From Bacteroidales bacterium (GTDB taxonomy: Bacteria > Bacteroidota > Bacteroidia > Bacteroidales > JAAYJT01): DNA of 63,217 nt. Below the pieces are notes generated by a model. It searched no databases and was not told the DNA's origin. It worked only from the letters and a program-made list of their open reading frames with translations. A program made the position numbers and the translations under genes. Positions within the stretch are counted from its first letter, which is position 1, and each line of letters opens with the position of its first letter. Of the stretch, positions 1-37,091 are shown piece after piece. Where the stretch lies: positions 83,443 to 146,659 of the forward strand of contig JAAYJT010000002.1 of assembly GCA_012522795.1 (NCBI GenBank). The letters run 5' to 3'.

Positions 1-228
1 CTGGCTCACGCCGAAACTTATTCAGAAGTGCTAAGCAAAGAGGGCGAATACACATACATATGTACCCCTCATCCGTATATGGAAGGGAAAATTATAGTTG
101 CTAAAGATAAGTACGATATCAGATATGCTTCAGCAGGACCTGCAGCAAACACTTCACTGGTCTGGTTTATTCTTGTTTTATCAGCTTTAGCACTTATGAT
201 AGGTTTAATAGCACTGATTAATAAATAA
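1..228 (+). CDS. Amicyanin-like membrane-anchored cupredoxin (3' end only)
   Basis: The reading frame is open from the first base, so the N-terminus lies outside the window; 75 residues are visible. The frame contains YICTPHPYM followed by EGKIIV, a type-1 copper loop of the form C-x2-H-x2-M, the spacing seen in amicyanin and related small blue copper proteins. The second copper histidine would be upstream of the window. A linker leads to a hydrophobic helix of about 22 residues ending in INK, so the copper domain is probably anchored by its C-terminus and faces the periplasm. It runs towards the oxidase-like operon (convergent, about 60 bp apart). A role as electron carrier for the neighbouring complex III is inference from position only. 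Confidence 0.75.
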   Translation: MAHAETYSEVLSKEGEYTYICTPHPYMEGKIIVAKDKYDIRYASAGPAANTSLVWFILVLSALALMIGLIALINK

Positions 229-289: not shown

Positions 290-1219
290 TTATTCGCTCA
301 ATGATTTGATGAACTCTATAATAAGCTGAACATCTTCTTCGCTTATTACATTCTCATAGGATATCATCTGTCCTTTGTTGAAACCTTCAACAATGTCGTC
401 ATCCGGGAAATATATTGAGTGGCGGATATACTCGTCATCAATTATAATTTCTCGCTTTACATTATTAGTGAATACGGTTACATTCTGACCATAAATACCC
501 TTGAATGTAGGTCCAATTACCATTGAGCCATCGAAAGAATGACAAGCCTGGCAACCATTTCTTTCCGCAATTCTACGCCCACGAGTTGCCGGATCAACCT
601 CTGTAGTCTTAACCGGACCATACCATGAAGAATAATCTTCTTCTGACATTACAACTACTTCACTTAACATCATTGCTTCCTGAACTCCTCCATATAACTC
701 AGCTCCATAAAGATCAAATTCTCCTTCGGTTGTAGCTTCGAACCATGCATGACCATATTCAAGTCCCGGGTTCATATCTTCTTTCATACGGAAAGCAGGA
801 ATAAAAAGTGAATGGATTACATCTTCGGCATCAAGATATAGTTTAACAGGCTTCCCAACAGGCACATACAGCTTTTCTGACACTTTATCATTATCATATT
901 TGAATGAAAAACCATCCTCGAGGCTGGCATTCACTGTAACCTCAATATAATCATCGGGTGTTTCCCGCATTGAAACCCATCCCGTCCAGCCATAATAATA
1001 GATTATAACTACGAGTCCAAGAAGAATAATAGTCCATACAAGTTCAAGTGTAGGATACCCTTTGATCTGAACAGCTTTGGGGTGTCTTCTTTTATTGTAT
1101 CGGTACATGAACAGGATAATTGTAAGGGAAATACCAATTAAAAGAAATAAAGTAATACCCATTATGACACCGAACGTTGTGTCAACACCTTCAACAAATG
1201 TGGATGCTCCTGAAAACAT
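290..1219 (-). CDS. coxB: Cytochrome oxidase subunit II homologue lacking CuA, with cytochrome c domain
   Basis: 309 residues. Two N-terminal membrane helices (about 16-38 and 60-80) precede a cupredoxin-fold domain and a C-terminal cytochrome c domain with CQACH (223-227) and a likely axial Met in FNKGQM. The fold signature VIHSLFIPAFRMKEDMNPG is typical of subunit II, and the first CuA histidine is kept (His136). The rest of the CuA motif, normally C-x-E-x-C-G-x2-H-x2-M, reads GAELYGGVQEAM: Gly172, Tyr176 and Gln180 replace Cys, Cys and His, while Glu174 and Met183 remain. The aromatic electron-entry segment before it is also not conserved. A binuclear copper centre therefore cannot form, yet the heme c domain looks functional. 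It is last in the actA-F/cox operon, 162 bp after the subunit IV gene, instead of preceding coxA as is usual. Confidence 0.9.
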   Translation of the reverse strand: MFSGASTFVEGVDTTFGVIMGITLFLLIGISLTIILFMYRYNKRRHPKAVQIKGYPTLELVWTIILLGLVVIIYYYGWTGWVSMRETPDDYIEVTVNASLEDGFSFKYDNDKVSEKLYVPVGKPVKLYLDAEDVIHSLFIPAFRMKEDMNPGLEYGHAWFEATTEGEFDLYGAELYGGVQEAMMLSEVVVMSEEDYSSWYGPVKTTEVDPATRGRRIAERNGCQACHSFDGSMVIGPTFKGIYGQNVTVFTNNVKREIIIDDEYIRHSIYFPDDDIVEGFNKGQMISYENVISEEDVQLIIEFIKSLSE

Positions 1220-1683: not shown

Positions 1684-2301
1684 TTAACGAATTAGGTAAA
1701 ACAAAGGAAACAGGAAAATCCATATTAGTACCACAAGATGCCAGAACAATCCGAAATTCTCAAATAAATGATAATTTTCGCTGTTTATCCTGTTTTTTAT
1801 AATCCTGAAAAAAATATAAATAATAAATATTAATCCAATCAAAATATGCAATGCATGCAAACCTGTCATCACAAAATATAATCCAAAAAACAGGATGGTT
1901 CCAGGACCTAATTCATGTAAAGTATTCGTGTCAGGGAGAAAGCCCTCATTGATCCTGGTACCCCATTCAAAATATTTGTAAAGTAGAAATGCTATGGCAA
2001 ATAAAATTGTAATTCCAAGAGTCAATAACGACAGGTTTTTGTTGTTTTTCTGAATTGCCGTCACTGAAATAGCCATTGTTGTACTGCTTATCAGCAATAT
2101 GATAGTACTGATTATTCCAACAGTCAATTCAAGTTCATTACCGGCAAGTTTAAAAGCTGCCGGATTTCTAGAGCGATAGGCAGTATAAACAATAAAAAGT
2201 GCACCAAAAAGTAACAGCTCAGCAAAAATAAACAGCCACATGCCAAACTTGGAGACATCATGTTCATCCTGCCCGGGTACATTATAAATATTTGTTTTCA
2301 T
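1684..2301 (-). CDS. coxC: Cytochrome c oxidase subunit III homologue
   Basis: 205 residues, the five-helix length typical of bacterial subunit III. The N-terminus SKFGMWLFIFAELLLFGALF, the internal FGLYFVMTGLHALHILIG and the C-terminal FGLFWHLVVLIWIFLFPLFY match the conserved helices of the family, including the acidic residue of the first helix and the GLH motif. It lies 14 bases downstream of coxA and 5 bases before the subunit IV gene, so co-translation is likely. Subunit III has no redox cofactor; in normal oxidases it supports proton uptake and long-term stability. Nothing in its sequence looks degenerate, in contrast to the metal sites of subunits I and II. Confidence 0.92.
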   Translation of the reverse strand: MKTNIYNVPGQDEHDVSKFGMWLFIFAELLLFGALFIVYTAYRSRNPAAFKLAGNELELTVGIISTIILLISSTTMAISVTAIQKNNKNLSLLTLGITILFAIAFLLYKYFEWGTRINEGFLPDTNTLHELGPGTILFFGLYFVMTGLHALHILIGLIFIIYIFFRIIKNRINSENYHLFENFGLFWHLVVLIWIFLFPLFYLIR

Positions 2302-2315
2302 TGATTCTGATACTT

Positions 2316-3941
2316 TTAATTATAATCGTAAGGATCATTTGTAATAACAGGGAGTTTATCAAAATTCACTGATGGTGGTGGGGTCGAAATAGTCCATTCA
2401 AGCGTTTTACCGCCCCAGGGATTCATATCATCACATTTTCTACCAAATCTCGCGTTACGGATTAAATTGATTATAATAATCAATGCACCCAAAATCAAAA
2501 TAATAGCACCTGTTGAAGAAGCAAGATTACCTGGCTGGAATCCAGGGGGATAATCATAAAAATGTCCTGGTAATCCCTGATAACCTAACATAAACATAGG
2601 CAAAAACAGAAGATTGAATCCAACAAAAAATACTAGGAATCCAATATTAGCCCATTTTTTATTATACATACGCCCAAATATTTTTGGAAACCAATAATGT
2701 ATGGCTCCCATAAATGCAAAACTCACACTTCCAAATACTATATAATGAAAATGAGCAATCTCAAATTGGGTTCTATGAACATATACATTGGTAGCAAGCG
2801 AACCAAACATCAAACCGGTAAGTCCTGCTATCAGGAAAATAAAAATAAAAGATACAGCCCAATAAAATGGAGTTGTAATATTGAGCGAGCCTTTATGCAT
2901 GGTGCCAAGCCAGTTGAGCACCACAACAATCATGGGAACTGTAATAATAAGAGCAAAAAATGAGAACAATGACAAGGCTCTGTCGCCAATGCCACTGGTA
3001 ACCATGTGCTGTCCCCACACAAAAAATCCTAAAAATGCAATGGCAAGCAGTGCAACAACAGTTGTTCTGTAGCTAAAGATGGTTTTTTGTGAAAAGGTTG
3101 GTATGATTTCAGAAATGATTCCCATAGCTGGCAAAATCATTATATAAATTGCAGGACGAGCATAAATCCAGAACAGATGCTGATACAAAGTCGGATCTCC
3201 TCCAAGCATGGGATCAAGCATACCAATTGCCATGGTGCTTTCGGCAAATATCATAAACAATGCAATTACAAGAACCGGAGTAGCAAGCAACTGAATCCAG
3301 GCAGCAGCATAAAGAGACCAGGGGAATAATGGCATTTTGAACCAGGACATTCCCTGCGCCCTGTAACGATGAACAGTAACTATAAAATTAATTCCAAGGG
3401 CAATGGAAGATAATCCGATCAGAAAAATACCTATAACAACCGGTAAAATATTTGCATTTATTAAAATACCATAAGGAATATTGAATGTCCATCCGGAATC
3501 GAATCCGCTATAATATCCGAATTGAGAAAGCAAAATAAATATTATCCCAATTATGTAAACATACCATGACACAAGATTTAACTTTGGAAATGCCACGTTA
3601 TTAGTCCCTAACATAATAGGAAGAAAGAAATTTCCAAAAACTGCTGTAAGTCCTGGTATTGCAACTGCAAATACCATTATAATGCCATGCAGGGTAGATA
3701 ACACACTAAAAGATTCTGATCCCATTATATTAGCACCCGGTGCCATGAGTTCGAGCTTCATCAATAAGCCCTGGATAGCCCCAACAATAAAAAAGATTGT
3801 AATAACAAAAAGATAGAGTAATCCAATACGCTTGTGATCAGTGGTGCATATCCAGGAATAAAGGTTTTTAAGTCGCCCTTTAAATCTGCTCTCTTCTTTA
3901 AGATAACTCACATGCTGTTGTGATACAATGCTTTCGCTCAT
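2316..3941 (-). CDS. coxA: Heme-copper oxidase subunit I homologue lacking CuB and proton channels
   Basis: 541 residues, normal length, 12-helix fold with family landmarks throughout (DHKRIG, NFFLPIMLG, LEWTISTPPP). The low-spin heme ligands His85 (TLHG) and His399, and the high-spin heme ligand His397 (AHFHY), are present. The CuB region that normally reads GHPEVY is ARPAIY: Arg262 replaces a CuB histidine and Ala264 the D-channel glutamate, while Tyr266 (cross-linked in normal oxidases) remains. The usual HH pair is Q311-H312, so a second CuB ligand is lost. Asn115 replaces the D-channel entry Asp, Met337 and Val340 replace the K-channel Thr and Lys, and Arg390 replaces the Asp near the Mg site. 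The frame is undamaged, so this looks like a maintained but repurposed protein. Neither an ordinary quinol oxidase nor NO reductase fits, because both keep three active-site histidines. What it reduces or transfers to is unknown. Confidence 0.92.
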   Translation of the reverse strand: MSESIVSQQHVSYLKEESRFKGRLKNLYSWICTTDHKRIGLLYLFVITIFFIVGAIQGLLMKLELMAPGANIMGSESFSVLSTLHGIIMVFAVAIPGLTAVFGNFFLPIMLGTNNVAFPKLNLVSWYVYIIGIIFILLSQFGYYSGFDSGWTFNIPYGILINANILPVVIGIFLIGLSSIALGINFIVTVHRYRAQGMSWFKMPLFPWSLYAAAWIQLLATPVLVIALFMIFAESTMAIGMLDPMLGGDPTLYQHLFWIYARPAIYIMILPAMGIISEIIPTFSQKTIFSYRTTVVALLAIAFLGFFVWGQHMVTSGIGDRALSLFSFFALIITVPMIVVVLNWLGTMHKGSLNITTPFYWAVSFIFIFLIAGLTGLMFGSLATNVYVHRTQFEIAHFHYIVFGSVSFAFMGAIHYWFPKIFGRMYNKKWANIGFLVFFVGFNLLFLPMFMLGYQGLPGHFYDYPPGFQPGNLASSTGAIILILGALIIIINLIRNARFGRKCDDMNPWGGKTLEWTISTPPPSVNFDKLPVITNDPYDYN

Positions 3942-3944
3942 AGT

Positions 3945-4256
3945 TTATTGTTCTTTTGGAATGTATTTACTGGTTTTATTACCTATCAAAAAGAAAAAAA
4001 TCCTACTTACAAAATGCGCCTTTCCTCTTAAGGCATTTGTAAGATTACATATATGGTTCTGAAATCCAGATACGTATAAACTATTAGAATTATTTTTGGC
4101 AAACAATTCTGATTTAACCGAAACTGGTTTTGAAATCAACCGATTAACAAAAACGCTTTCATTCTTTTGAGTAAAATCCCGAAAAGTATCCCCGTTCTGA
4201 ACTTTTATTTCAAGTTCAGGCGGGGTACCATATATGATGACAGGATTTTTAAACAT
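3945..4256 (-). CDS. Small unknown protein between actF and coxA
   Basis: 103 residues with no family I recognise. It fits tightly into the operon (21 bases after actF, 3 bases before coxA), which argues for a real translated gene. The N-terminus reads IIYGTPPELEIKVQNGD and is polar; the only hydrophobic stretch is short (IFFFLIG near residue 85) and followed by a basic tail, so at most one marginal membrane segment exists. There is no CxxCH, cysteine cluster or signal peptide. It could be a small accessory subunit of the oxidase-like complex or the remnant of an older gene. I would not assign a function. Confidence 0.5.
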   Translation of the reverse strand: MFKNPVIIYGTPPELEIKVQNGDTFRDFTQKNESVFVNRLISKPVSVKSELFAKNNSNSLYVSGFQNHICNLTNALRGKAHFVSRIFFFLIGNKTSKYIPKEQ

Positions 4257-4277: not shown

Positions 4278-5435
4278 TTATAAATGACGGTGTTTACTTT
4301 CTTCAAGAAATGGGTGATTAACCGGTATTAATGGGGTTTTACTCAAAAGAATGAATACTAAATAGAGATATAAGCCAAGAAAACCAATAAAAGTGAATAT
4401 CTCAATCAGTCCAATATTACATTTTCCAATACTGCCCGGCATAATCTGTAAATATACACTAATCCACATGCCAAGTAGCAGTAACATGCTTAATACAACC
4501 ATAACAGTTTTTGTTCTTGCTACTTTATCATTCATCAATGCCAGAAAAGGAATTGCAAAATTCAAGGCAAAATCCAGATAAAACATTAGGCTCCATTCCC
4601 CGCTCATTCTTGGTTTGTAATAAACAGTTGTTTCAGGAATATTAGCATACCATATAATCAGAAACTGAACGAACCATAAATATCCCCACACTATGCTAAA
4701 TCTGAAAAGATAACGTACAAAATCATGACGATGAGCCTCGTTCATAATGGTGAAATAGCCTTGCTTCTGTAGCCATAATAAAAGAAGTATCATAAATGCT
4801 ACAGCATAATACATGGTTGCAAGTAGATTTTTCAAACCAAATAAAGTGCTGAACCAATGCGCATCAATAGTCATTATCCAGTCAATAGTAGCCATAGTAA
4901 AGGTAAATACTATTGCAAAAATAAATGCTCCGGAAGCTGTGATATGTTTTTCAATATGCAGAGTTCCCTGAATATCTTCTTTCAATGATAATTTACGCAT
5001 CCACCAGGCAAATCCAATCCACAGAGCAAAGTAAAAGACAGCTCTGATATAGAAAAATGTAACATTAAGATAAGATGATTTATAAATCAGCAGTTCGTCA
5101 GAAGCAACAGCTTCTTTATCAGTCCATTCGTACAAAGCAGGCATGCCAAAATACAAAACCAGTACAATAATAAACCCGATTGGAAGCCAAATACCTGCAG
5201 CAAGCGGAATGCGCTGGAACAAAGCTGACCATCCTGAATTGGTTACATATTGTATTGCATAAAAGAAAAGTGCTCCTATTGAAAGCATAAGAAAAACATA
5301 ATTATTCAACAGGATGTTTGCCCATGTACGGTCAGGATTTGTAACGAATCCTAAAATAATGCCAATAAGGCCAACTACTACCAATGCTGCGAATAAAATA
5401 CGCCAACTACGTTTGTATTGAAATTTCATTTCCAT
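4278..5435 (-). CDS. actF: Alternative complex III integral membrane subunit ActF
   Basis: 385 residues with about ten predicted membrane helices. The N-terminus (YKRSWRILFAALVVVGLIGI) and the segments WSALFQRIPLAAGIWLPIG and FTFTMATIDWIMTIDAHWFS are characteristic of ActF, the shorter of the two quinol-dehydrogenase membrane subunits related to NrfD/PsrC-type proteins. In the complex it sits beside ActC and is thought to support proton movement; it carries no heme or Fe-S motif. It follows actE by 11 bases and precedes the small unknown gene, in the standard actA-F order. Confidence 0.9.
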   Translation of the reverse strand: MEMKFQYKRSWRILFAALVVVGLIGIILGFVTNPDRTWANILLNNYVFLMLSIGALFFYAIQYVTNSGWSALFQRIPLAAGIWLPIGFIIVLVLYFGMPALYEWTDKEAVASDELLIYKSSYLNVTFFYIRAVFYFALWIGFAWWMRKLSLKEDIQGTLHIEKHITASGAFIFAIVFTFTMATIDWIMTIDAHWFSTLFGLKNLLATMYYAVAFMILLLLWLQKQGYFTIMNEAHRHDFVRYLFRFSIVWGYLWFVQFLIIWYANIPETTVYYKPRMSGEWSLMFYLDFALNFAIPFLALMNDKVARTKTVMVVLSMLLLLGMWISVYLQIMPGSIGKCNIGLIEIFTFIGFLGLYLYLVFILLSKTPLIPVNHPFLEESKHRHL

Positions 5436-5446
5436 GGCTAATGCTA

Positions 5447-6061
5447 TTATTTTTGTTTCCGAAGTACTTCCTCAATATACATTACAATCTTCCATCTGTC
5501 TTCAGGTTTAACCAACACTTCATGTGCAGCCATTGTACCCCAACCTTTCGTAATCACATGAAAAATCTCACCTGAGGGTTTTTCCAGAATATCACCTTCA
5601 ACCAATGTTGCTGGTTTCACAAGGAATTTTCCTGATGTATATAATATTCCATCTCCTTTTCCATCCACACCATGACAATGCATGCAAAATATCTCATATT
5701 TTGCTTTGCCTTCGGCTATAAGTTCATTATTAACTTCAAAAGGATTTGTAAGCTCTTTGCCAGCCAATTCTCTTGATTCAAAAGAGTTATCGTAAGGATA
5801 TGGCACAAAACCTATTGGAATTGTACCTTCAGGGGCTTCCTGCATTATTTGTCCATCGGGTAAAACCGGATGTTCACTATAAGTTTTATAAGCTGCTGAA
5901 TTGAACATATCAGGAAAATAATCGTAACCTCTGTCCATCCGGCTGCGATCACAACTACTGACAATTAAAACTGTAAGCATTAATAGCAGAGTTATACGTC
6001 CTTTTAAAGTAATATGACTGGATTTCATATTCATATATTTCTTAAGTTCAAAATTCTTCAT
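5447..6061 (-). CDS. actE: Alternative complex III monoheme cytochrome c subunit ActE
   Basis: 204 residues; a lipoprotein signal ends at VLIVSSC (Cys37), so it is probably lipid-anchored on the periplasmic face. A single heme c site CMHCH lies at 126-130, with a plausible axial Met in GWGTMAAH. The conserved YDYFPDMFNSAAYKTYSEHP and GFVPYPY segments are typical of ActE. It passes electrons from the ActA hemes to a downstream acceptor. The first ATG overlaps the end of actD by 14 bases; starts at Met10 (6034) or Met12 (6028) would remove the overlap and give a more usual lipoprotein signal length. Confidence 0.92.
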   Translation of the reverse strand: MKNFELKKYMNMKSSHITLKGRITLLLMLTVLIVSSCDRSRMDRGYDYFPDMFNSAAYKTYSEHPVLPDGQIMQEAPEGTIPIGFVPYPYDNSFESRELAGKELTNPFEVNNELIAEGKAKYEIFCMHCHGVDGKGDGILYTSGKFLVKPATLVEGDILEKPSGEIFHVITKGWGTMAAHEVLVKPEDRWKIVMYIEEVLRKQK

Positions 6062-6554
6062 GTCTTATTTCAATTGCACCGCTGTTTCTCATTAAAGATT
6101 CAACATCAGCTACTGTATTCTTCTGGTCAATAACTACAAAAAACTTGTCATCCATAGCACCTATACCTGGCATTTTTGCTTTCTTACCCGGATACATAGC
6201 TGTGCGTCCGATAAAGGCAAATACTGTCAGAGTAGCAGTTCCCAGAATAGTTATAAGATAAATGATCACAACCATAGGAGGAAATGAAAATGTAGGTTTT
6301 CCACCATAACTTAGCGGATAATTTATAACAGAAGTGTAATAAACAAACAGAAATGTTAAAATTGCAGCTACTGCACCAAAAATAAAAGCCAGATGAGGTA
6401 AACGGGTAGGCTTGGTCACTAACGAAAGAATATCGTGACTTGCAAAGGGTCCGTACACATCATTAATTTTTACTTTATTTTCCTTAAGTTTTTTAATGGC
6501 GCTAACCACACGGTTCTCATCATCAAAAACTCCTATAACTGATTTTTTACTCAT
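6048..6554 (-). CDS. actD: Alternative complex III subunit ActD (DUF3341)
   Basis: 168 residues. The N-terminal part (SVIGVFDDENRVVSAIKKLK) forms the small alpha/beta domain typical of DUF3341 and is followed by two membrane helices (about 55-75 and 92-115) and a short soluble tail ending GAIEIRHEEF. This is the ActD architecture. The subunit has no cofactors and helps bind the periplasmic and membrane parts together. It overlaps the start of actE and lies 9 bases after actC. Confidence 0.93.
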   Translation of the reverse strand: MSKKSVIGVFDDENRVVSAIKKLKENKVKINDVYGPFASHDILSLVTKPTRLPHLAFIFGAVAAILTFLFVYYTSVINYPLSYGGKPTFSFPPMVVIIYLITILGTATLTVFAFIGRTAMYPGKKAKMPGIGAMDDKFFVVIDQKNTVADVESLMRNSGAIEIRHEEF

Positions 6555-6563
6555 ACTGACCTC

Positions 6564-7934
6564 CTATTCTTTTTCTTTATTTTCTTCGTAGCCAAGTTTA
6601 CTAATCCCTTTTACTTCATTAATGGCAATGATAGGAATGAACCGGATAAACATCAGCATACCAGCCATAAACAAACCGAATGTTCCTACATATAATCCTA
6701 TATCAACAAGTGTAGGTTTGTAAGTTGCCCAGTTTGCAGGCAAAAAATCCTGAGAAAGTGATGATACAATGATCACGAAACGTTCGAACCACATTCCTAT
6801 ATTAATCATAATAGAAATAATAAACAGCCAGAATAAGCTCTTTCTGAATTTCTTAAACCAGAAAAACTGCGGCATTATAGCGTTACATAAAACCATAATC
6901 CAGAAATCAGAAGAAAAATTACCTGAAGCCCTGACATGCAGGAAAGTAAAAGCTTCGTATTCTACCCCAGAATACCAGGCAATAAAGATTTCCATTAAAT
7001 AAGATGAACCGATGATCAAGCTGCCAAATTGTAGAACCCTGGCTATGAACTCCAAATGCTTATCGGTCACAAAGTCTTTGATCTTCAATACCTTCCGTAG
7101 CATGATCATGATCGTAAGCACCATTGCAAAACCTGAGAATATAGCTCCAACAAAGAAGTAAGGCGGAAAAATTGTAGTATGCCATCCCGGAATAACCGAA
7201 ACTGCAAAGTCAAGTGCAACAATAGAGTGAACTGAGATCACCAGAGGTGCTGCAAGTCCGCCCAAAATCTTATTCAGTGATTCATAACGATTATATTGGA
7301 TTGCCGAGCCACTCCATCCCATTGCAAAAATCCCGTAAATAGTCTTTTTGAATTTACTTTTTGATCTGTCGCGAATAGTAGCCAAATCGGGGATCATACC
7401 AAAATACCAAAGTGTGATTGACATCAACAGATAAGTGCTGATGGCGAGTACGTCCCAAAACAATGGTGAATTATAGTTAAGCCAAAGTGGTCCACGGGTA
7501 TTAGGGTAAGGAAGAATATAAAATGCCAGCCATGGCCTTCCCATGTGTAACAATGGAAATAAAGCTGCGCATAAAACTGCAAATACCGTCATTGCTTCGG
7601 CAGTTCTGTTAATTGACGATGCCCATTTCTGCCTAAAAATAAGAAGGAAAATCGTAAATGCAGTACCGGCATGCCCTATACCAATCCACCATACAAAGTT
7701 TATAATGTCCCAACCCCAGGCTACAGTATTATTAATACCCCAGGTTCCAAGTCCATAGGCAAAAGTTTCGTACAAAGCCCATGCACCTGCAAGTAATGCC
7801 AAAGTAGCTAATGTCATGGCTGCATACCACCATCGGGAAGGTTTCGTTTCGGTAGGTAATGCTATATCGCGGGTAACTTCCGCATATGTTTTATTTCCTT
7901 CAACAAGGACACCTTTGAAATGACTACGTATCAT
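6564..7934 (-). CDS. actC: Alternative complex III quinol-binding membrane subunit ActC (NrfD-like)
   Basis: 456 residues with about ten membrane helices. Diagnostic segments include NNTVAWGWDIINFVWWIGIG, HMGRPWLAFYILPYPNTRG and HSIVALDFAVSVIPGWH, all typical of the NrfD/PsrC-related ActC subunit that holds the quinol site near the periplasmic side. Residues such as the HMGRPW histidine and arginine are intact, so quinol chemistry looks preserved even though the associated oxidase is abnormal. It lies between actB (70 bases upstream) and actD. Confidence 0.94.
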   Translation of the reverse strand: MIRSHFKGVLVEGNKTYAEVTRDIALPTETKPSRWWYAAMTLATLALLAGAWALYETFAYGLGTWGINNTVAWGWDIINFVWWIGIGHAGTAFTIFLLIFRQKWASSINRTAEAMTVFAVLCAALFPLLHMGRPWLAFYILPYPNTRGPLWLNYNSPLFWDVLAISTYLLMSITLWYFGMIPDLATIRDRSKSKFKKTIYGIFAMGWSGSAIQYNRYESLNKILGGLAAPLVISVHSIVALDFAVSVIPGWHTTIFPPYFFVGAIFSGFAMVLTIMIMLRKVLKIKDFVTDKHLEFIARVLQFGSLIIGSSYLMEIFIAWYSGVEYEAFTFLHVRASGNFSSDFWIMVLCNAIMPQFFWFKKFRKSLFWLFIISIMINIGMWFERFVIIVSSLSQDFLPANWATYKPTLVDIGLYVGTFGLFMAGMLMFIRFIPIIAINEVKGISKLGYEENKEKE

Positions 7935-8004
7935 ACTGTATTAATTTCAAATTTTAGTTTTAGGATTTCCTTCAATTTCATATCGCTATTCCTTTTTCAG
8001 AAAC

Positions 8005-10920
8005 TCAAACATTTCTGATCTTTGTTAAATATCCAACTGACGGCAGTAAATGCATTTCCTCAAGAACATGATAATTACGTTCATCTTTAAAGAGTTTTGA
8101 CACTTCACTGTCAGGATCATTCAAATCGCCAAACACAAGTGCTTTACCCGGACAGGCTTGTACGCAAGCAGGCTGAATCTCTCCATCCATTACTTTTCTG
8201 TTTTCAAGTTTGGCTTTAAGCTTAACTTCCTGGATCCGCTGTACACAGAATGAGCATTTTTCAACAACTCCCCTCTCACGAACTGTTACATCCGGATTAA
8301 GAACCATTCTTCCAATATCATCATTCATATTATAATCAAACGCCTTATTCTTTGAATACTGGAACCAGTTAAAACGTCTGACCTTGTATGGGCAGTTATT
8401 TATACAATACTTGGTTCCCACACAACGGTTGTATGTGATTTGATTAATACCCTCATCACTATGTGTAGTTGCTGCAACAGGACAAACATTTTCGCATGGT
8501 GCATTATCGCAATGCTGGCACATCAGGGGTTGGAAAACAACACCCGGATTATCGGTTTCACCTGTATAATACCTGTCAATCCGCATCCAGTGCATAATAC
8601 GTCTGCGCATAACTTCTCTTTTGCCGATAACAGGAACATTATTTTCGGCCTGACAGGCAATAACGCAGGCACTACAGCCTATACAACGATTAAGATCAAC
8701 GGCTAAAGCCCAGTGATGCCCTTCAAATTTCGCCTCAGGGTAAAGGGTAGCTTTATGTGCTTCATTAAACTCATGAAGTTCATTACCTGAAGCAGGGTCA
8801 TTCTGCCAGGCAGTAAGTACTGATTCACGAACAATGGCTCGCCCTTCCATATTATGATGGGTTTGAGTAAGAGCCAGATCTGTTTTTGCTTTTGTTTTTA
8901 CAGGCTGGTCAATCGAAACATTATACTTCTTATAACCATCCTTGAATTCAACAAAATTAAATACGTTAACTCCAATGCCTTCAGCTACCTTACCTGAGCG
9001 CTGACGACCATATCCAAGAGCAACTGAAACAGTTTTTTCTTTCTGTCCGGGTTGAACTATTACCGGAAGCTCAACACCTTCGAACAAACGTATCAAATCG
9101 CCATTGTTCACACCAAGAACTTCTGCATCAACAGGTGAAATAGCAGCAAAATTATCCCAGCAAACCTTAGAAACCGGATCAGGAAGTTCCTGTAACCACG
9201 GATTATTTGCATGACGACCGTCGCCTAATGCCGTTGATTCATAAAAGACAAGATCCCAGCCTTCATTAACGGTAGCTTTTTGTAAAGATCCTGCTGTGGC
9301 TAATGCTTCATTACTGATATTTACATTTACCGATTCAATTTCCGGTGTAAAAACTCCTAGCTGGAGGCTTTCCTGCCAAAATGCTGTAAAAAGACCTGTT
9401 TTATTTTGTTTTGTAAAAATTTGCTTTTCCCACAGTTCTTTAATCAGATCCTTATAACTCAAATCATTATCTGACCATTTTAGCAAACTATCCTGCATCT
9501 GACGTGTGTCAAACAATGGGCGAATAGTCGGTTGAGCTACACCATAAAAGCCGTTTGCAGGTGCAACATCATCCCATGATTCAAGATAATGAGGCGAAGG
9601 TAGGATATAATCGGCAAGTTCTGATGTTTCGTTCAGAACGGAAGAAAATGATACTTTCAGATCAACCTTATCCAAAGCATTTTTAAATCCGTTGCCGGGG
9701 TAATCGTAAACCGGATTAGCATCACCAACAATAAGTGCTGATATTTTTCCGGCTTCCATATCATTAACAAGTTGCTGTAAATCCTTATCATTACCTTGGC
9801 AAAGATTCAGTGAATTTGTAAAATCAATGGTATTGCCATAACTTCCTGCCATATAATTAATGGCATTTACCAGCGTTTGAACCTTTATATCGTTAGTTCC
9901 TGAAACAATAAGGGTTTTGTTTTCATTTTTTCTGATCTCAGCAGCAAGATTCTTTGCTTGCTCAGGTTCGCTCCCATTACCATTGCCGGCTAAAATATTA
10001 TAAGTACCCTGCAAGATCTGCAATTCCTCATGTGGCTTGATCTTAAAACGCTTATCAGCATTTGCGCCTGTAACTGACATTCCACTTTCGAATTGCAGGT
10101 GACGCGACATTTCTTTTTTGTCTTTTCTCAATGCTCTTGAATCAGCATATTGCCGGGTATATGTTACAGGAAGTAGCCAGTTTGCAAGAAAATCGGCATT
10201 GAATCCAACAATTAATCCGGCACTGTCGAATCGATAAAAAGGAATTTCCCGGCGGTTAAAGCTAAGCAGGTTAGCTTCACGGATTGCACTATAGGAAATA
10301 GCATCATAAACCACATGCCTGAAGTTATTATACCGGTTTTTAAACCTGTTTATCACTTCCTGTGTTGAAGGGCTAATAATAGTGGAAGTAAGAAGTACAA
10401 TGTCTTTTCTGGCAGAATCCAATTTGCCGGCAATATCTCTATCGGCTTGTTCCCATGTTGTTTTTTCACCATTGTAAAACGGATGATGATAACGTCCGGC
10501 AGTATCATAAAGACTTAATACCGAAGCCTGCACACGACCCGTTGTTCCTCCGTGAGTAAGCATCACCGATTTATTACCCTCAATCTTTATAGGTCTTCCA
10601 TCGCGCACTTTTACCAGAATAGGACAAAAATCTTTGCCATCATAAAAAGAGGAGGCATACCAGGAAGCCATTCCTGGGGTTATATCTTCAGGTTGGTTCA
10701 AATAAGGAATAGCTTTTTTTATTGGACTTTCACAGCTTGCCAATACTGTAGCACTCATAAAGCTAAATCCACACCATTTCAAAAAATCACGGCGCGAAGT
10801 TTTACTTTCATTATTTTCACTGCTCAATAATTCAAAAGTTGATATACCACTTTGATCTTCTTCACCAGGATCAAAGTGTGTACCATTATATTCTTCAAGA
10901 CTTTTCCAGTATTTTTTCAT
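8005..10920 (-). CDS. actB: Alternative complex III iron-sulfur subunit ActB
   Basis: 971 residues. Residues 42-48 (SRRDFLK) and the following hydrophobic stretch form a Tat signal that ends in a lipobox with Cys63. Residues of about 100-700 form the molybdopterin-oxidoreductase-like domain of ActB, which in known complexes holds no molybdenum. Residues of about 730-960 carry the ferredoxin-type cysteine sets: CIGCSACVIAC, CQHCDNAPCENVCP, CVGTKYCINNCP and CSFCVQRI with CVQACP, enough for four Fe-S clusters. The subunit connects the quinol site with the ActA hemes. It is 41 bases downstream of actA. No cluster cysteine appears to be missing. Confidence 0.95.
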   Translation of the reverse strand: MKKYWKSLEEYNGTHFDPGEEDQSGISTFELLSSENNESKTSRRDFLKWCGFSFMSATVLASCESPIKKAIPYLNQPEDITPGMASWYASSFYDGKDFCPILVKVRDGRPIKIEGNKSVMLTHGGTTGRVQASVLSLYDTAGRYHHPFYNGEKTTWEQADRDIAGKLDSARKDIVLLTSTIISPSTQEVINRFKNRYNNFRHVVYDAISYSAIREANLLSFNRREIPFYRFDSAGLIVGFNADFLANWLLPVTYTRQYADSRALRKDKKEMSRHLQFESGMSVTGANADKRFKIKPHEELQILQGTYNILAGNGNGSEPEQAKNLAAEIRKNENKTLIVSGTNDIKVQTLVNAINYMAGSYGNTIDFTNSLNLCQGNDKDLQQLVNDMEAGKISALIVGDANPVYDYPGNGFKNALDKVDLKVSFSSVLNETSELADYILPSPHYLESWDDVAPANGFYGVAQPTIRPLFDTRQMQDSLLKWSDNDLSYKDLIKELWEKQIFTKQNKTGLFTAFWQESLQLGVFTPEIESVNVNISNEALATAGSLQKATVNEGWDLVFYESTALGDGRHANNPWLQELPDPVSKVCWDNFAAISPVDAEVLGVNNGDLIRLFEGVELPVIVQPGQKEKTVSVALGYGRQRSGKVAEGIGVNVFNFVEFKDGYKKYNVSIDQPVKTKAKTDLALTQTHHNMEGRAIVRESVLTAWQNDPASGNELHEFNEAHKATLYPEAKFEGHHWALAVDLNRCIGCSACVIACQAENNVPVIGKREVMRRRIMHWMRIDRYYTGETDNPGVVFQPLMCQHCDNAPCENVCPVAATTHSDEGINQITYNRCVGTKYCINNCPYKVRRFNWFQYSKNKAFDYNMNDDIGRMVLNPDVTVRERGVVEKCSFCVQRIQEVKLKAKLENRKVMDGEIQPACVQACPGKALVFGDLNDPDSEVSKLFKDERNYHVLEEMHLLPSVGYLTKIRNV

Positions 10921-10961
10921 AAAATATTTTTTCTAAAAATTGGTTATAAATAAATCAAATA

Positions 10962-12116
10962 TTAATAATGACATTTCATACAATTAATGCCCCCTATTTC
11001 CGATGCAGTAATTGAATCAATAGCACCGGATTTTAATTTATCATAAAGTTCATTAAAAGTTGTATAATATTCATTTTCAAAGAATTGAATCTTAGTATCA
11101 CGGTGACAATTTATGCACCAACCCATGCTCAAATCTTCAACTTGTTTTACAATATGCATCTCTTCAACTGGTCCATGACATGTCTGACATTCAATACCGG
11201 CAACGTTAGTATGCTGCGCATGACTGAAAAATGTGTGATCAGGCAGTTTATGAATACGCACCCAACGAACAGGTTCGCCTGTTTTAGCAGCCCTGTGTAT
11301 CTTGTTTATCTCAAAAGCTCCGCTATTTGTTCCATTTTTTATCACATTATGACAATTCAAACAAATGCTGTTTGAAGGTATCCCTCCCGAAAGGCTGTAA
11401 TCAGCTATAAAATGGCAATAGCGACAATCTATCTGATTTTCACCGGCATGGATCTTATGTGAGAATTTTATAGGCTGATCCGGAGCATATCCCTGGCTTC
11501 TGCCAACTTTAACAGATTCAATACGTGCAAAAGCAGTGTGAACACCTATTCCAATAATCAAAACCGCAACATGAATAAACCGATAGCGTACTCTTTTCGT
11601 AAAAAGCAGGTCAATTATAGCAAGCGCCATGAGTATACCCATGATCCAAAACGCAAACGTATTTATTGGATATGGTTTTAGAACCCCGGGACCCTCTTCG
11701 GCTACATGCTTTAAGAAAACCTGCAGTAAACGTTCTTCTTCGCTGGTGATAGTCATTCCATAGTGCTCTTCTTCTAAGCGTTCAGAAACAGGATTATTCA
11801 TCACCTGATAAATATCAGTTCCGTCTTCTTCAAGCCATGCTATTGCCAGATCATAGGCTGAAGGATTCCAGTTAATTTCTTCAGTTGCTCCAAGATAGTG
11901 GCATGAGGAGCAATCAAATCTTCCACTTTTAAAATCAACCAATCCCATAAATAATCGCTGGCCCATCCTGAGATCTCTTTTATCAGACTGTTCCTGCGAC
12001 TCTTCAGCCAATACAGGTCTACTGATAAATATCAGTACTGTTATTAAGCAAAATAATAATCTGGAAATGGTGCTGATAACGGAATTTTTCGGAGTAGTAA
12101 AGTATAGTTTTATCAT
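10962..12116 (-). CDS. actA: Alternative complex III multiheme cytochrome ActA with six heme sites
   Basis: 384 residues. After a signal peptide (cleavage near VLAEES) there is a separate N-terminal heme domain with CSSCH at 69-73 and a possible Met ligand at 121. A membrane helix pair follows at about 154-172 and 178-197. The C-terminal multiheme domain has CRYCH (231), CLNCH (252), CQTCH (310), CINCH (334) and CMKCH (379), the last at the extreme C-terminus. The classical ActA is pentaheme; this version adds a sixth CxxCH before the membrane helices. It is the first gene of the act/cox operon. A possible promoter element sits 28 bases upstream of the start codon. Confidence 0.93.
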   Translation of the reverse strand: MIKLYFTTPKNSVISTISRLLFCLITVLIFISRPVLAEESQEQSDKRDLRMGQRLFMGLVDFKSGRFDCSSCHYLGATEEINWNPSAYDLAIAWLEEDGTDIYQVMNNPVSERLEEEHYGMTITSEEERLLQVFLKHVAEEGPGVLKPYPINTFAFWIMGILMALAIIDLLFTKRVRYRFIHVAVLIIGIGVHTAFARIESVKVGRSQGYAPDQPIKFSHKIHAGENQIDCRYCHFIADYSLSGGIPSNSICLNCHNVIKNGTNSGAFEINKIHRAAKTGEPVRWVRIHKLPDHTFFSHAQHTNVAGIECQTCHGPVEEMHIVKQVEDLSMGWCINCHRDTKIQFFENEYYTTFNELYDKLKSGAIDSITASEIGGINCMKCHY

Positions 12117-32922: not shown

Positions 32923-35070
32923 TTATCTTTTTTTCCTTGAGGCAAGCATAATCTCAAGCATCTTTAATGCGGCATCAGATATTGAGGTGCCGGGTCCAAA
33001 AATTGCAACAGCACCTGCCTTATAAAGAAAATCATAGTCTTGCGGTGGGATTACTCCTCCTACAATAACCATTATATCCTCACGTCCATGCTTTTTAAGT
33101 TCTTCTATTACCTGAGGAACAAGAGTTTTATGGCCTGCAGCCAGACTTGAAACACCAAGGATGTGCACATCATTTTCAACGGCTTGTTTAGCTGCTTCAG
33201 CAGGGGTTTGAAATAATGGTCCTACATCAACATCAAAGCCAATATCAGCATAACCTGTTGCAACTACCTTTGCACCGCGATCGTGTCCATCCTGTCCCAT
33301 TTTAGCAATCATTATCCGGGGACGGCGACCTTCAATGCCGGCAAATTCATCAGCAAGAGCACAAGCCTTTTGGAACAGATCATCATCTTTTGATTCTGAG
33401 GAGTAAACTCCGGAAATACTTCTTATCACAGCTTTATATCTCCCATAAATTTTTTCAAGAGCAGTTGAAATTTCACCTAATGAAGCATGCTTACGAGCTG
33501 CATCAATGGAAAGCGCCAATAAGTTACCTTCATTTGTTTCAGCAGCTTTAGTAAGAGCATTCAATGCAACTTCCACTTCATTATTGTTGCGGTTATTGCG
33601 TAATTCTGCCAATCTTTTTATTTGTGAATTTCTTACAGCAGTATTGTCCACTTCCAGGATTTCGATAGGGTCTTCTTTTTCAAGCCTGTATTTATTAACA
33701 CCAAGAATAGTATCCTTTCCTGAATCAATATGAGCCTGACGACGTGCAGAAGCTTCTTCTATCCTCATTTTTGGGATTCCGGTTTCTATAGCTTTTGCCA
33801 TACCACCAAGTGATTCGATCTCCTGGATAAGATCCCATGCTTTATGTGCGATCTCATGAGTAAGAGATTCAATATAATATGAACCTGCCCAGGGATCTAC
33901 TGCCTTACAAATATTGGTTTCTTCCTGTAGATATATCTGGGTATTACGTGCTATTCGGGCAGAAAAATCAGTGGGAAGTGCTATGGCTTCATCCAAAGCA
34001 TTGGTATGTAATGACTGAGTATGTCCCAATGCTGCTGCAAGCGCTTCAATACAGGTTCTTGTAACATTATTGAAAGGATCCTGTTCAGTAAGGCTCCAAC
34101 CAGAAGTTTGACTATGGGTTCGTAAAGCCATTGATTTAGGATTTTTAGGGTTGAACTGTTTAACAATTTTTGCCCACAACATACGTGCAGCACGCATTTT
34201 GGCAATTTCCATAAAATGGTTCATGCCTACAGCCCAGAAAAATGAAAGACGAGGAGCAAAACTATCAATAGGAATTCCGGCTGCTATGCCTGTGCGTATA
34301 TATTCCAATCCGTCAGCCAGGGTGTATGCCAGTTCAAGATCAGCAGTAGCACCTGCTTCCTGCATATGGTAACCACTGATACTTATTGAGTTGAACTTTT
34401 TCATATTCTTTGAAGTAAACTCAAATATATCAGCAATGATTTTCATGGAAGGCAAAGGAGGATAGATATAAGTATTGCGAACCATGAATTCTTTAAGAAT
34501 ATCGTTTTGGATTGTACCTATAAGCTTATCGAGTGATACACCCTGTTCTTCAGCGGCTACAATATAAAATGCCATGATTGGAAGCACAGCTCCGTTCATG
34601 GTCATTGACACCGACATTTTATCAAGTGGAATCTGATCGAACAGGATTTTCATATCAAGAATTGAATCAATAGCCACACCAGCTTTCCCAACATCGCCAA
34701 CAACGCGCTCGTGGTCAGAATCATAACCGCGATGTGTAGCAAGATCGAATGCTACTGATAATCCCATTTGACCTGCTGCCAGATTTCGCCGATAAAATGC
34801 ATTGGATTCTTCGGCTGTGGAAAAACCGGCATACTGACGTATAGTCCACGGACGCATTACATACATTGTACTATAAGGCCCGTGCAAATAAGGAGGAATT
34901 CCGGCAGCATACTGCAAATGTTCGATACCGGCTAAATCGTCGGCAGTATAAATAGGTTTTACTTTGATCTGTTCATTTGTAAACCATTCGTACCCAGAAG
35001 TTCCTTTTAGGGTTTCGGCTTTTGGAACTGAGAACTCACTGAATTTTACTTTGCTGAAATCTGGTCGCAT
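32923..35070 (-). CDS. mutB: Methylmalonyl-CoA mutase large (catalytic) subunit
   Basis: 715 residues. The N-terminal TIM-barrel domain contains the substrate region [17 protein letters not shown] and [16 protein letters not shown]. The C-terminal cobalamin-binding domain carries [20 protein letters not shown], with the DxHxxG motif that supplies the lower histidine ligand, and [12 protein letters not shown]. It interconverts (R)-methylmalonyl-CoA and succinyl-CoA using adenosylcobalamin, which in this phylum serves propionate formation or breakdown. It lies 84 bases downstream of mutA, the partner subunit, in one minus-strand operon. No G-protein chaperone (meaB/argK) or epimerase is in the window. 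Confidence 0.97.
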
Positions 35071-35154
35071 ATCTTATTATTGATTTTCGATTTTTAATTA
35101 TATTTTAAGTTATAAGGCACTGTAAACGAGTATACTAAATATTTGTTTCTGATC

Positions 35155-37053
35155 TTAGTCTATTATACCAAGTTTCTTATGAAATCCGATTAAAGTAGTA
35201 AAAACATTACTTCTGATATGAATGAATTCCTCAATTCCTACTTGTTTAAAGCTTTTAATATGTTCTTTTGGATATCCTGCAAGCACTGGAATCGCCTTAC
35301 TTTCCATTTCTTTTAATTGTTTGCATATCTGAGGGACCAAATCTACATATTCTTCATCGGAACTGCAGATAACAACAATTGAAGGCTGTTGTTTCCTTAC
35401 TTCCTCAATACCTTCTTCTACTGTAGTAAAGCCTGCATTATCAACGATCCTGTATCCGGCACATCCAAAAAATCCGGTACTAAAAGCAGCGCGAGCTTTA
35501 CGCATTGCAAGATTACCAATTGTGAACAAAAAGACTACGGGCTGATCATTACCGGTTTCTATGAAAATTTCTGTTGCAAGTCTGAGATCTTCAAATTCAT
35601 CGGATAATCTGCCTGGTTGTAATGTTTTGTATTTGCTTTCCTTCTTTTGAAGCTCTTCTTCATCAGGTTGTATTTCCTGAATTTTTTCAAGCATGCGTTC
35701 TTTAAGGTCAGGATGCTGATTAGTTCCCAACAATACCATTCGTCTGTATGCAAGATCTTCAATACGTTGTTTGGCATTTTTCTCAACTTCATCCTGAACA
35801 AAGCCTGTTTTAACTGCCTGGGTCATTCCACCCAATGTTTCAACTTTTGTAAATAAATCCCATGCGTGGCTTGCTATGCTGTAAGTAAGCTGTTCAATAT
35901 AATATGAACCTGCTGAAGGGTCAATTACCTTATCAAGGTATGCTTCTTCCTGAAGTAAAATCTGCTGGTTACGTGCAATTCGCATTGAAAAATCATCTGC
36001 TTCCTTGTAAGGAACATCAAAAGGTATTACAGTAATGGAATCTACACCTCCAATTGCAGCAGCCATAGCTTCGGTTGTTGAACGAAGCAGATTTACATAA
36101 GGATCATAAACTGTTTTATTCCAGTTTGAAGTAATAACTTGTACATGAGCCATCAAAGTTTTTGTATCTGATGGTCTATACTGCTCAATCATACGAGTCC
36201 ATAACAAACGAATAGCACGGAATTTCGCAATTTCCATAAAATAATTACTTCCGGCTGATAAAATCAGGGTAATGCGTTGGGCAATATCATCAACAGGTAA
36301 ACCCCTGGCGCTCAATAATGCGGTATATTCTGATGCCGAAGCCAAAGTAAATGCAAGTTCCTGAATAATGTTTGCTCCGCTATCATGAATATAATGTCCG
36401 TTGATACTTAACAACCTGAGTTGTGGTGTCTTGCTTCGACCGACTGAAATAAGCTCATATGCCTGATCAAAGTCAGCGGATTCACTCAGGAAAAAGTTGC
36501 CATGAAGCAGGAGATAGCTAATAAGATCAAAATCAAAAGACCCCTGTAATGATTTTGGATCGAAATTTAATTCTTTACAGGCTTCAATCAAATGGTTTAA
36601 TAAAACCGGATAATTATTGCTGTTATAATAATGAATCTCGGTTTTTGCCAATGGAATACCTCTTAACAAAGTTACCAGATCTGCAACCGATTTCACTTCA
36701 CTTACATCAAGGGCAAGAGCATTGGCTCCTTTTGCAATGGCATCAAGAGCGATTCGATTTGCTTCCTGCAAATCTGAAACATCAATATCCTGACAAATCC
36801 TCCATTTATTATCCACAGTTTTATTACTCCTTACAAAAGGATAGCTTCCAGGCTGAGAGCCAATGTGTGGCAAATCTGTTAACTGCCCTGCGCGATAGTA
36901 TGGCTTAATATTTATGCCCTCAGGTGTCTTCCAAATAAGTTTTTTATCATAGTCGGCACCTTTAAGATCTTCAATTATTCTGGATTCCCATTCTTCAGTA
37001 GAAACCGGCGGGAAATCAGTAAAAAGTTTCTGATAAGTTTTATTATTATCCAT
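35155..37053 (-). CDS. mutA: Methylmalonyl-CoA mutase small subunit
   Basis: 632 residues from the preferred start MDNNKTYQKLFTDFPPVSTE. The longer frame from 37086 is rejected because a perfect TACCTTTG promoter element overlaps its first codon. The barrel domain is recognisable (ADYDKKLIWKTPEGINIKPY and DPSAGSYYIEQLTYSIA), but the C-terminal cobalamin-like domain lacks the DxHxxG motif, as usual for the non-catalytic beta subunit. It pairs with MutB in a heterodimer. The C-terminal part keeps the flavodoxin-like fold (ARAAFSTGFFGCAGYRIVD). Confidence 0.95.
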   Translation of the reverse strand: MDNNKTYQKLFTDFPPVSTEEWESRIIEDLKGADYDKKLIWKTPEGINIKPYYRAGQLTDLPHIGSQPGSYPFVRSNKTVDNKWRICQDIDVSDLQEANRIALDAIAKGANALALDVSEVKSVADLVTLLRGIPLAKTEIHYYNSNNYPVLLNHLIEACKELNFDPKSLQGSFDFDLISYLLLHGNFFLSESADFDQAYELISVGRSKTPQLRLLSINGHYIHDSGANIIQELAFTLASASEYTALLSARGLPVDDIAQRITLILSAGSNYFMEIAKFRAIRLLWTRMIEQYRPSDTKTLMAHVQVITSNWNKTVYDPYVNLLRSTTEAMAAAIGGVDSITVIPFDVPYKEADDFSMRIARNQQILLQEEAYLDKVIDPSAGSYYIEQLTYSIASHAWDLFTKVETLGGMTQAVKTGFVQDEVEKNAKQRIEDLAYRRMVLLGTNQHPDLKERMLEKIQEIQPDEEELQKKESKYKTLQPGRLSDEFEDLRLATEIFIETGNDQPVVFLFTIGNLAMRKARAAFSTGFFGCAGYRIVDNAGFTTVEEGIEEVRKQQPSIVVICSSDEEYVDLVPQICKQLKEMESKAIPVLAGYPKEHIKSFKQVGIEEFIHIRSNVFTTLIGFHKKLGIID

Positions 37054-37083
37054 TGCCTTAAACAAATATTTTGAATAGTGATG

Positions 37084-37091
37084 CAAAGGTA
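37084..37091 (-). promoter_or_regulatory. -7 promoter element of the mutA-mutB operon
   Basis: The minus strand reads TACCTTTG, a perfect TAnnTTTG match, 31 bases upstream of the mutA ATG at 37053. An ATTG lies 18 bases further upstream as a weak -33 candidate. Confidence 0.5.

Follow-up and report, generated by a model that had tools for sequence, protein, structure and literature searches.

The window, a stretch of 63,217 nucleotides, belongs to a 2.88 Mb genome that is 97% complete. Near its start lies a respiratory operon in which ActA to ActF (4278–12116) are followed, on the same strand, by subunits I, III, IV and II of a terminal oxidase. A nirK gene converges on subunit II, with its stop codon 61 bp from that of the oxidase gene. 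In order of position, the features are:

1–228, plus strand: C-terminal cupredoxin domain and transmembrane end of NirK (whole gene L002:6432-8228), convergent with subunit II
290–1219, minus strand: subunit II of a caa3-type (A2) oxidase, assigned from the open reading frame, domain matches and an alignment with 92 relatives
365–553, minus strand: heme c site of subunit II, with the CQACH codons at 539–553 and the axial Met285 codon at 365–367 (alignment)
677–706, minus strand: former CuA loop, with G172 at 704–706, G177 at 689–691, E181 at 677–679 and an extra residue, L175
1382–1678, minus strand: subunit IV (COX4_pro / caa3_sub_IV, domain match)
1684–2301, minus strand: subunit III (COX3, domain match)
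2316–3941, minus strand: subunit I (COX1 family, alignment)
3944–4013, minus strand: probable 3' remnant of an SCO gene, at the end of the open reading frame 3945–4256 (co-linear DNA alignment)
4278–5435, minus strand: ActF (synteny and 76% identity to the gene of a congener)
5447–6061, minus strand: ActE, monoheme cytochrome c of alternative complex III (ACIII; domain match)
6048–6554, minus strand: ActD (PF11821, E 3.8e-39)
6564–7934, minus strand: ActC (NrfD family, quinol site; domain match)
8005–10920, minus strand: ActB (iron-sulfur, molybdopterin-like; domain match)
10962–12116, minus strand: ActA, multiheme cytochrome c (domain match)

Subunit II has 309 amino acids, two transmembrane helices and matches to the COX2 transmembrane, COX2 periplasmic and cytochrome c domains; the GAELYGGVQEAM motif is found in its open reading frame. 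Three CuA ligands are replaced (C172G, C177G and H181E), all of which are kept in 92/92 aligned relatives, and the first CuA histidine, His136, and Met184 are retained. The only cysteines of the entire subunit are C223 and C226 of the CQACH motif, which makes a CuA centre impossible. The heme c ligands C223, C226, H227 and M285 are all intact, and the cytochrome c domain is the least changed part of the protein, with one of 16 conserved columns broken versus 8 of 31 in the CuA domain. An invariant tryptophan has become a glutamate (W101E); from the alignment, we take this to be the position of the tryptophan through which electrons enter cytochrome oxidases. Six of 31 otherwise invariant subunit II columns are broken here, versus a maximum of two in any of the 92 relatives, so the pattern is not a chance one.

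The first-pass annotation of this stretch had reported a subunit II without CuA and with a complete cytochrome c domain, and the alignment bears out both statements. It had placed the three lost ligands at codons 704–706, 692–694 and 680–682, with Gly, Tyr and Gln as the new residues. The first codon and its glycine are correct; the other two codons are one residue off because of the extra loop residue L175, and the aligned residues, at 689–691 and 677–679, are Gly and Glu. The correction leaves the conclusion that CuA is lost unchanged, and stronger.

Subunit I is the product of the only COX1-family gene of the genome, is 48–63% identical to canonical relatives and is scored by Pfam at E 3e-124 despite its lost catalytic residues. 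Two of the three CuB histidines are gone, H262 being replaced by arginine (codon 3156–3158) and H311 by glutamine (codon 3009–3011); all three are kept in 96/96 relatives. The earlier description of subunit I as CuB-less is borne out, although the third histidine, H312, is still in place. Residues of the D and K proton channels are altered (D115N, K340V, S337M and S261A), the last being the serine of the A2-type YSHP motif, so that the helix VI motif here reads YARPAIY. Both heme-propionate arginines are replaced (R459G and R460H), and D390R is also seen. Y266 and the histidines that ligate the low-spin and high-spin hemes (H85, H397 and H399) are all retained. The retention of these three histidines alone carries no statistical weight: with 21% of the invariant columns lost, three would all be kept with a chance of about 0.5. 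In Rhodobacter sphaeroides numbering, which was derived from the range of the match to 1m56 and from family knowledge, the changed residues presumably correspond to 284 (H262), 333 (H311), 362 (K340), 132 (D115), 481 and 482 (R459 and R460) and 412 (D390), and the kept ones, on the same assumption, to 334 (H312), 288 (Y266) and 102, 419 and 421 (H85, H397 and H399). Structures predicted from single sequences were of poor quality (pLDDT 46 for subunit II and 49 for subunit I) and were set aside.

The complete set of COX1, COX2, COX3 and COX4 subunits, of which the COX2 protein bears a cytochrome c domain, places the operon in the caa3-type A family. It is not a quinol oxidase (cyo/qox) operon, given the cytochrome c domain, the lost CuB ligands and NCBIfam QoxA/CyoA scores far under the cut-off. 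Nor does it hold the second-metal (FeB or CuB) ligand set of a heme-copper NO reductase, two of the three histidines being replaced.

For comparison, every strong subunit I match and its neighbours were collected from 393 genomes of the order, which yielded 96 sequences of A2-type subunit I and 92 of subunit II. Every one of the former has its three CuB histidines and the lysine, every one of the latter has CuA, and ligand losses like those described here are absent from both sets. In subunit I, 32 of 149 invariant columns are broken, versus a maximum of three in any other sequence. Residues of catalysis, proton transfer and CuA are hit disproportionately: with catalytic sets hand-picked from the R. 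sphaeroides numbering, 7 of 9 catalytic invariant columns of subunit I are broken versus 25 of 140 others (Fisher p 3e-4), and in subunit II 4 of 6 functional-site columns versus 2 of 25 others (p 0.006). The congener, G002, has a fully canonical oxidase with 63% subunit I identity. The copper-less state is seen in this one genome assembly and represents a single evolutionary case. A search of genome contigs with subunit I gave one match, a distant Acidobacteria locus, and searches of open-access papers found no natural oxidase lacking CuB.

Among the 92 relatives, an intact CuA subunit II is always paired with an intact CuB subunit I. The first-pass annotation had proposed that copper was lost from both subunits together, and this agrees with the comparison: the matched loss, a co-variation seen in one genome, occurs in this operon only and extends to SCO and CtaB, and in none of the relatives compared does a normal subunit I have a copper-less subunit II that carries a cytochrome c domain as its neighbour. 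The only CuA-less subunits II beside a normal subunit I, at loci L152 and L153, are of the quinol-oxidase type without cytochrome c domain that it had set apart.

The genes that serve the copper and heme centres are also affected. SCO, the CuA copper chaperone, directly precedes subunit I in 94 of 100 loci of relatives, the six others being contig edges or other oxidase types. Its site is occupied here by a 336-base stretch. The final 70 bases of this stretch can be aligned with the congener SCO gene at its 3' end, an alignment that none of 2000 dinucleotide shuffles equalled. At the protein level the resemblance is weak (12 of 500 shuffles were as good), and an HMM of 94 SCO sequences does not recognise the open reading frame 3945–4256. 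This frame as a whole was therefore rejected as an SCO gene, having no family match and aligning only over its 3' 70 bases; positions 3944–4013 of the window are probably a remnant of the 3' end of a deleted one. SCO was not found anywhere in the genome. CtaB, the heme O synthase, overlaps the end of subunit II in the congener and is present in 13 of 14 canonical relatives searched, the exception (G042) having its operon at a contig end. Here it is absent from the operon site, and a genome-wide search did not find it; the known route to heme O and heme A would therefore be closed. Heme A synthase, CtaA (PF02628), is absent here too; because a clear CtaA is also missing from relatives with canonical oxidases (one sub-threshold match, in G004), CtaB is the informative gene. 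The canonical relatives, G002, G004, G007 and others of the order, carry CtaB and no clear CtaA, and their A2 oxidases may for this reason use heme O rather than heme A.

On amino-acid trees, the branch leading to this genome is longer than that of the congener by a factor of 6.2 for subunit I, 4.0 for subunit II, 4.8 for subunit III and 2.8 for subunit IV, while the ActB branch is not accelerated (0.236 versus 0.235 in the congener). The excess in the oxidase amounts to about 429 amino-acid replacements, for which a neutral expectation of 0.056–0.069 stops per replacement predicts 24–29 stop codons. The four oxidase genes contain no stop or frameshift in 1153 codons. When only the 85 changes at otherwise invariant columns are counted, 4.7–5.8 stops are expected (p 0.003–0.009). 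In a codon model, the branch omega is about 0.10 for the four oxidase genes and omega = 1 is rejected (2dlnL 16.1, with dS saturated); single-gene dN/dS fits were unstable. Because synonymous sites are saturated, the stop-codon expectation is the main argument for retention. Together, the open frames, the omega value, the spared cytochrome c domain and the normal rate of ACIII make it more likely that the oxidase is retained in a new role than that it is simply decaying, a slow loss being the less likely course.

The ACIII part of the operon has the complete set of ActA to ActF, with no Pfam match for ActF. In Rhodothermus marinus, ActE donates electrons directly to the cytochrome c domain of subunit II, and in the supercomplex the membrane part of the oxidase adjoins ActC (PMC5928083). 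ACIII also has a described role in supplying electrons to N2O reduction (PMC9270275). A third member genome of the genus (G001, 91% complete) lacks ACIII, oxidase and NirK alike, so that one genus displays three states of a single respiratory module.

The convergent NirK is closest to TsNirK, with a full-length match to PDB entry 6hbe (E 8e-119). Its motifs HGASIH, FGQYG and CTPHPYM supply the T1 and T2 copper ligands, the HGxSIH sensing loop and the glutamine T1 ligand, and with the C-terminal cupredoxin domain they identify a three-domain NirK of the TsNirK type. TsNirK is an active nitrite reductase with SerCAT and a Gln-ligated T1 copper, and its putative donor is a cytochrome c (PMC6400189). 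The three-domain type with an added C-terminal transmembrane helix was seen in 2 of 60 relatives, if weak partial matches are set aside. The congener carries a 76% identical NirK near its oxidase operon, with a few unrelated genes between NirK and subunit II; the adjacency of the two genes here could therefore be a by-product of deletion. Elsewhere in the genome is the following cluster:

L196:11253-16945 (G000 contig C37), minus strand: clade II (Sec-dependent) nosZ cluster with a cytochrome c, a NosL-domain protein and NosD

The NosZ protein has a CuA motif. With NirK and nosZ present and a heme-copper NO reductase absent, the genome looks like that of a partial denitrifier. General copper economy is ruled out by the retention of these two copper enzymes, and the loss of copper is specific to the oxidase. 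Cytochrome bd is encoded as well. Further c-type cytochromes, of which one lies next to NosZ and another on contig C71, could serve NirK and NosZ without subunit II. On contig C71, the stretch L197:10190-12937 encodes CxxCH proteins with seven and five hemes, together with a small cytochrome c and a membrane protein resembling cytochrome b, possibly a further electron outlet. Within the window, two adjoining genes (32923–37086, minus strand) resemble, by eye only, both subunits of methylmalonyl-CoA mutase.

With W101, the propionate arginines, the proton channels and CuB lost and no heme O synthase found in the genome, no O2-reducing centre of a known kind is expected to form. We hold with moderate confidence that the operon encodes a former caa3-type (A2) oxidase that no longer reduces O2 and is kept as a partner of ACIII, with heme c as the electron outlet. 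The front half of the R. marinus route from ACIII to subunit II is intact here, and the remainder is not. Menaquinol would be oxidised by ACIII, and electrons would leave the complex through ActE to the heme c of subunit II. With W101E, no CuA and a subunit I lacking an O2-reducing site, we infer that heme c is the exit, from which electrons would pass to periplasmic acceptors, bypassing CuA and subunit I. The likeliest acceptor would be the membrane-anchored three-domain NirK encoded convergently with subunit II, and NosZ would come second. A membrane scaffold and the contact with ACIII would be provided by subunits I, III and IV, which would carry hemes b or no heme; the former oxidase is predicted from its genes to continue assembling with ACIII. 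More tentatively, and with this extension being doubtful, ACIII and the copper-free caa3 remnant may form a menaquinol:periplasmic reductase complex, a non-catalytic electron exit whose tethered heme c feeds NirK and perhaps N2O reduction.

The most serious competing explanation is decay, in which the oxidase has become useless because cytochrome bd handles O2, and the operon is being lost while its proteins are inert or merely tolerated in the membrane. The reduction of SCO to a possible 3' remnant, the disappearance of CtaB, the strong acceleration of all four oxidase subunits, the availability of cytochrome bd and the completed loss in the same-genus genome G001 are all as decay would have them. 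We nevertheless consider it rather unlikely, as the complete lack of stops and frameshifts where two dozen or more are expected, a lack that stays significant at the invariant columns, the low branch omega and the unrelaxed cytochrome c domain and ACIII all speak against it. An artefact of assembly or sequencing is hardly credible: there is a single assembly, in 100 contigs, but its frames are open, 32 invariant columns of subunit I and 6 of subunit II have changed together, and the two gene losses lie inside a 146 kb contig that is syntenic with the congener.

Two further possibilities keep subunit I at work. The first-pass annotation had favoured a copper-free electron path leading from heme c in subunit II into the subunit I hemes; in a working enzyme of this kind, a substrate would be reduced there. 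In its favour, the heme c site and all three histidine ligands of the hemes are still present, but W101, CuB, the two propionate arginines and both proton channels are lost, no heme O synthase was found, and CuA normally spans a gap that is too long for direct transfer from heme c to heme a; we regard this path as improbable and do not retain it. Still less probable is a new NO-handling enzyme, in which the former oxidase would take over the absent NO reductase step, using heme alone. It would suit a genome with just one COX1-family gene, an adjoining NirK and a NosZ cluster. The second metal of NO reductases, however, is held by three histidines, usually with a glutamate, and here two of the three are replaced (by Arg and Gln) and the YARPAIY motif of helix VI has gained no glutamate; moreover, it is not rare for a genome to have nirK and nosZ and to lack nor.

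The retained ACIII partner that we prefer can be set against known systems. The A2-type caa3 oxidases of Rhodothermus marinus and Thermus thermophilus (PDB entry 2YEV) likewise have subunits I to IV, the second fused to a cytochrome c, an operon behind ACIII and all three heme histidines, and helix VI is of the YS type in relatives; unlike the present system, they have CuA, the full set of CuB histidines, the D and K channels, the YS serine, the propionate arginines, SCO and CtaB. The ACIII-caa3 supercomplex (PMC5928083) shares the order of actABCDEF followed by the oxidase operon, and both ActE and the cytochrome c of subunit II, whereas the terminal oxidase here is predicted from its genes to be incapable of reducing O2 by the known mechanism. 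In the cbb3-type oxidase of Nitrospina gracilis (PMC3578206), an otherwise invariant CuB centre has also changed naturally, but there a neighbouring tryptophan and an extra histidine are affected and the CuB histidines are not lost, while here two CuB ligands and CuA are gone. Heme-copper NO reductases also have altered active-site metal ligands in subunit I, with a full second-metal site that is lacking here. Quinol oxidases (cyoA/qoxA, for example L152 and L153) share a CuA-less subunit II; they have no cytochrome c domain and keep CuB and the channels, in contrast to the cytochrome c domain kept, and the subunit I degenerate, in the present operon.

The CuA and CuB ligands are regarded as fixed features of cytochrome c oxidases. 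A natural case of their joint loss, together with both proton channels, SCO and CtaB, from genes that have stayed open next to an unchanged ACIII would reveal which components of an ACIII-oxidase supercomplex remain of use when O2 is not reduced. Since Pfam still scores so degenerate a subunit I as a strong match, COX1 and COX2 matches in genomes need not imply aerobic respiration.
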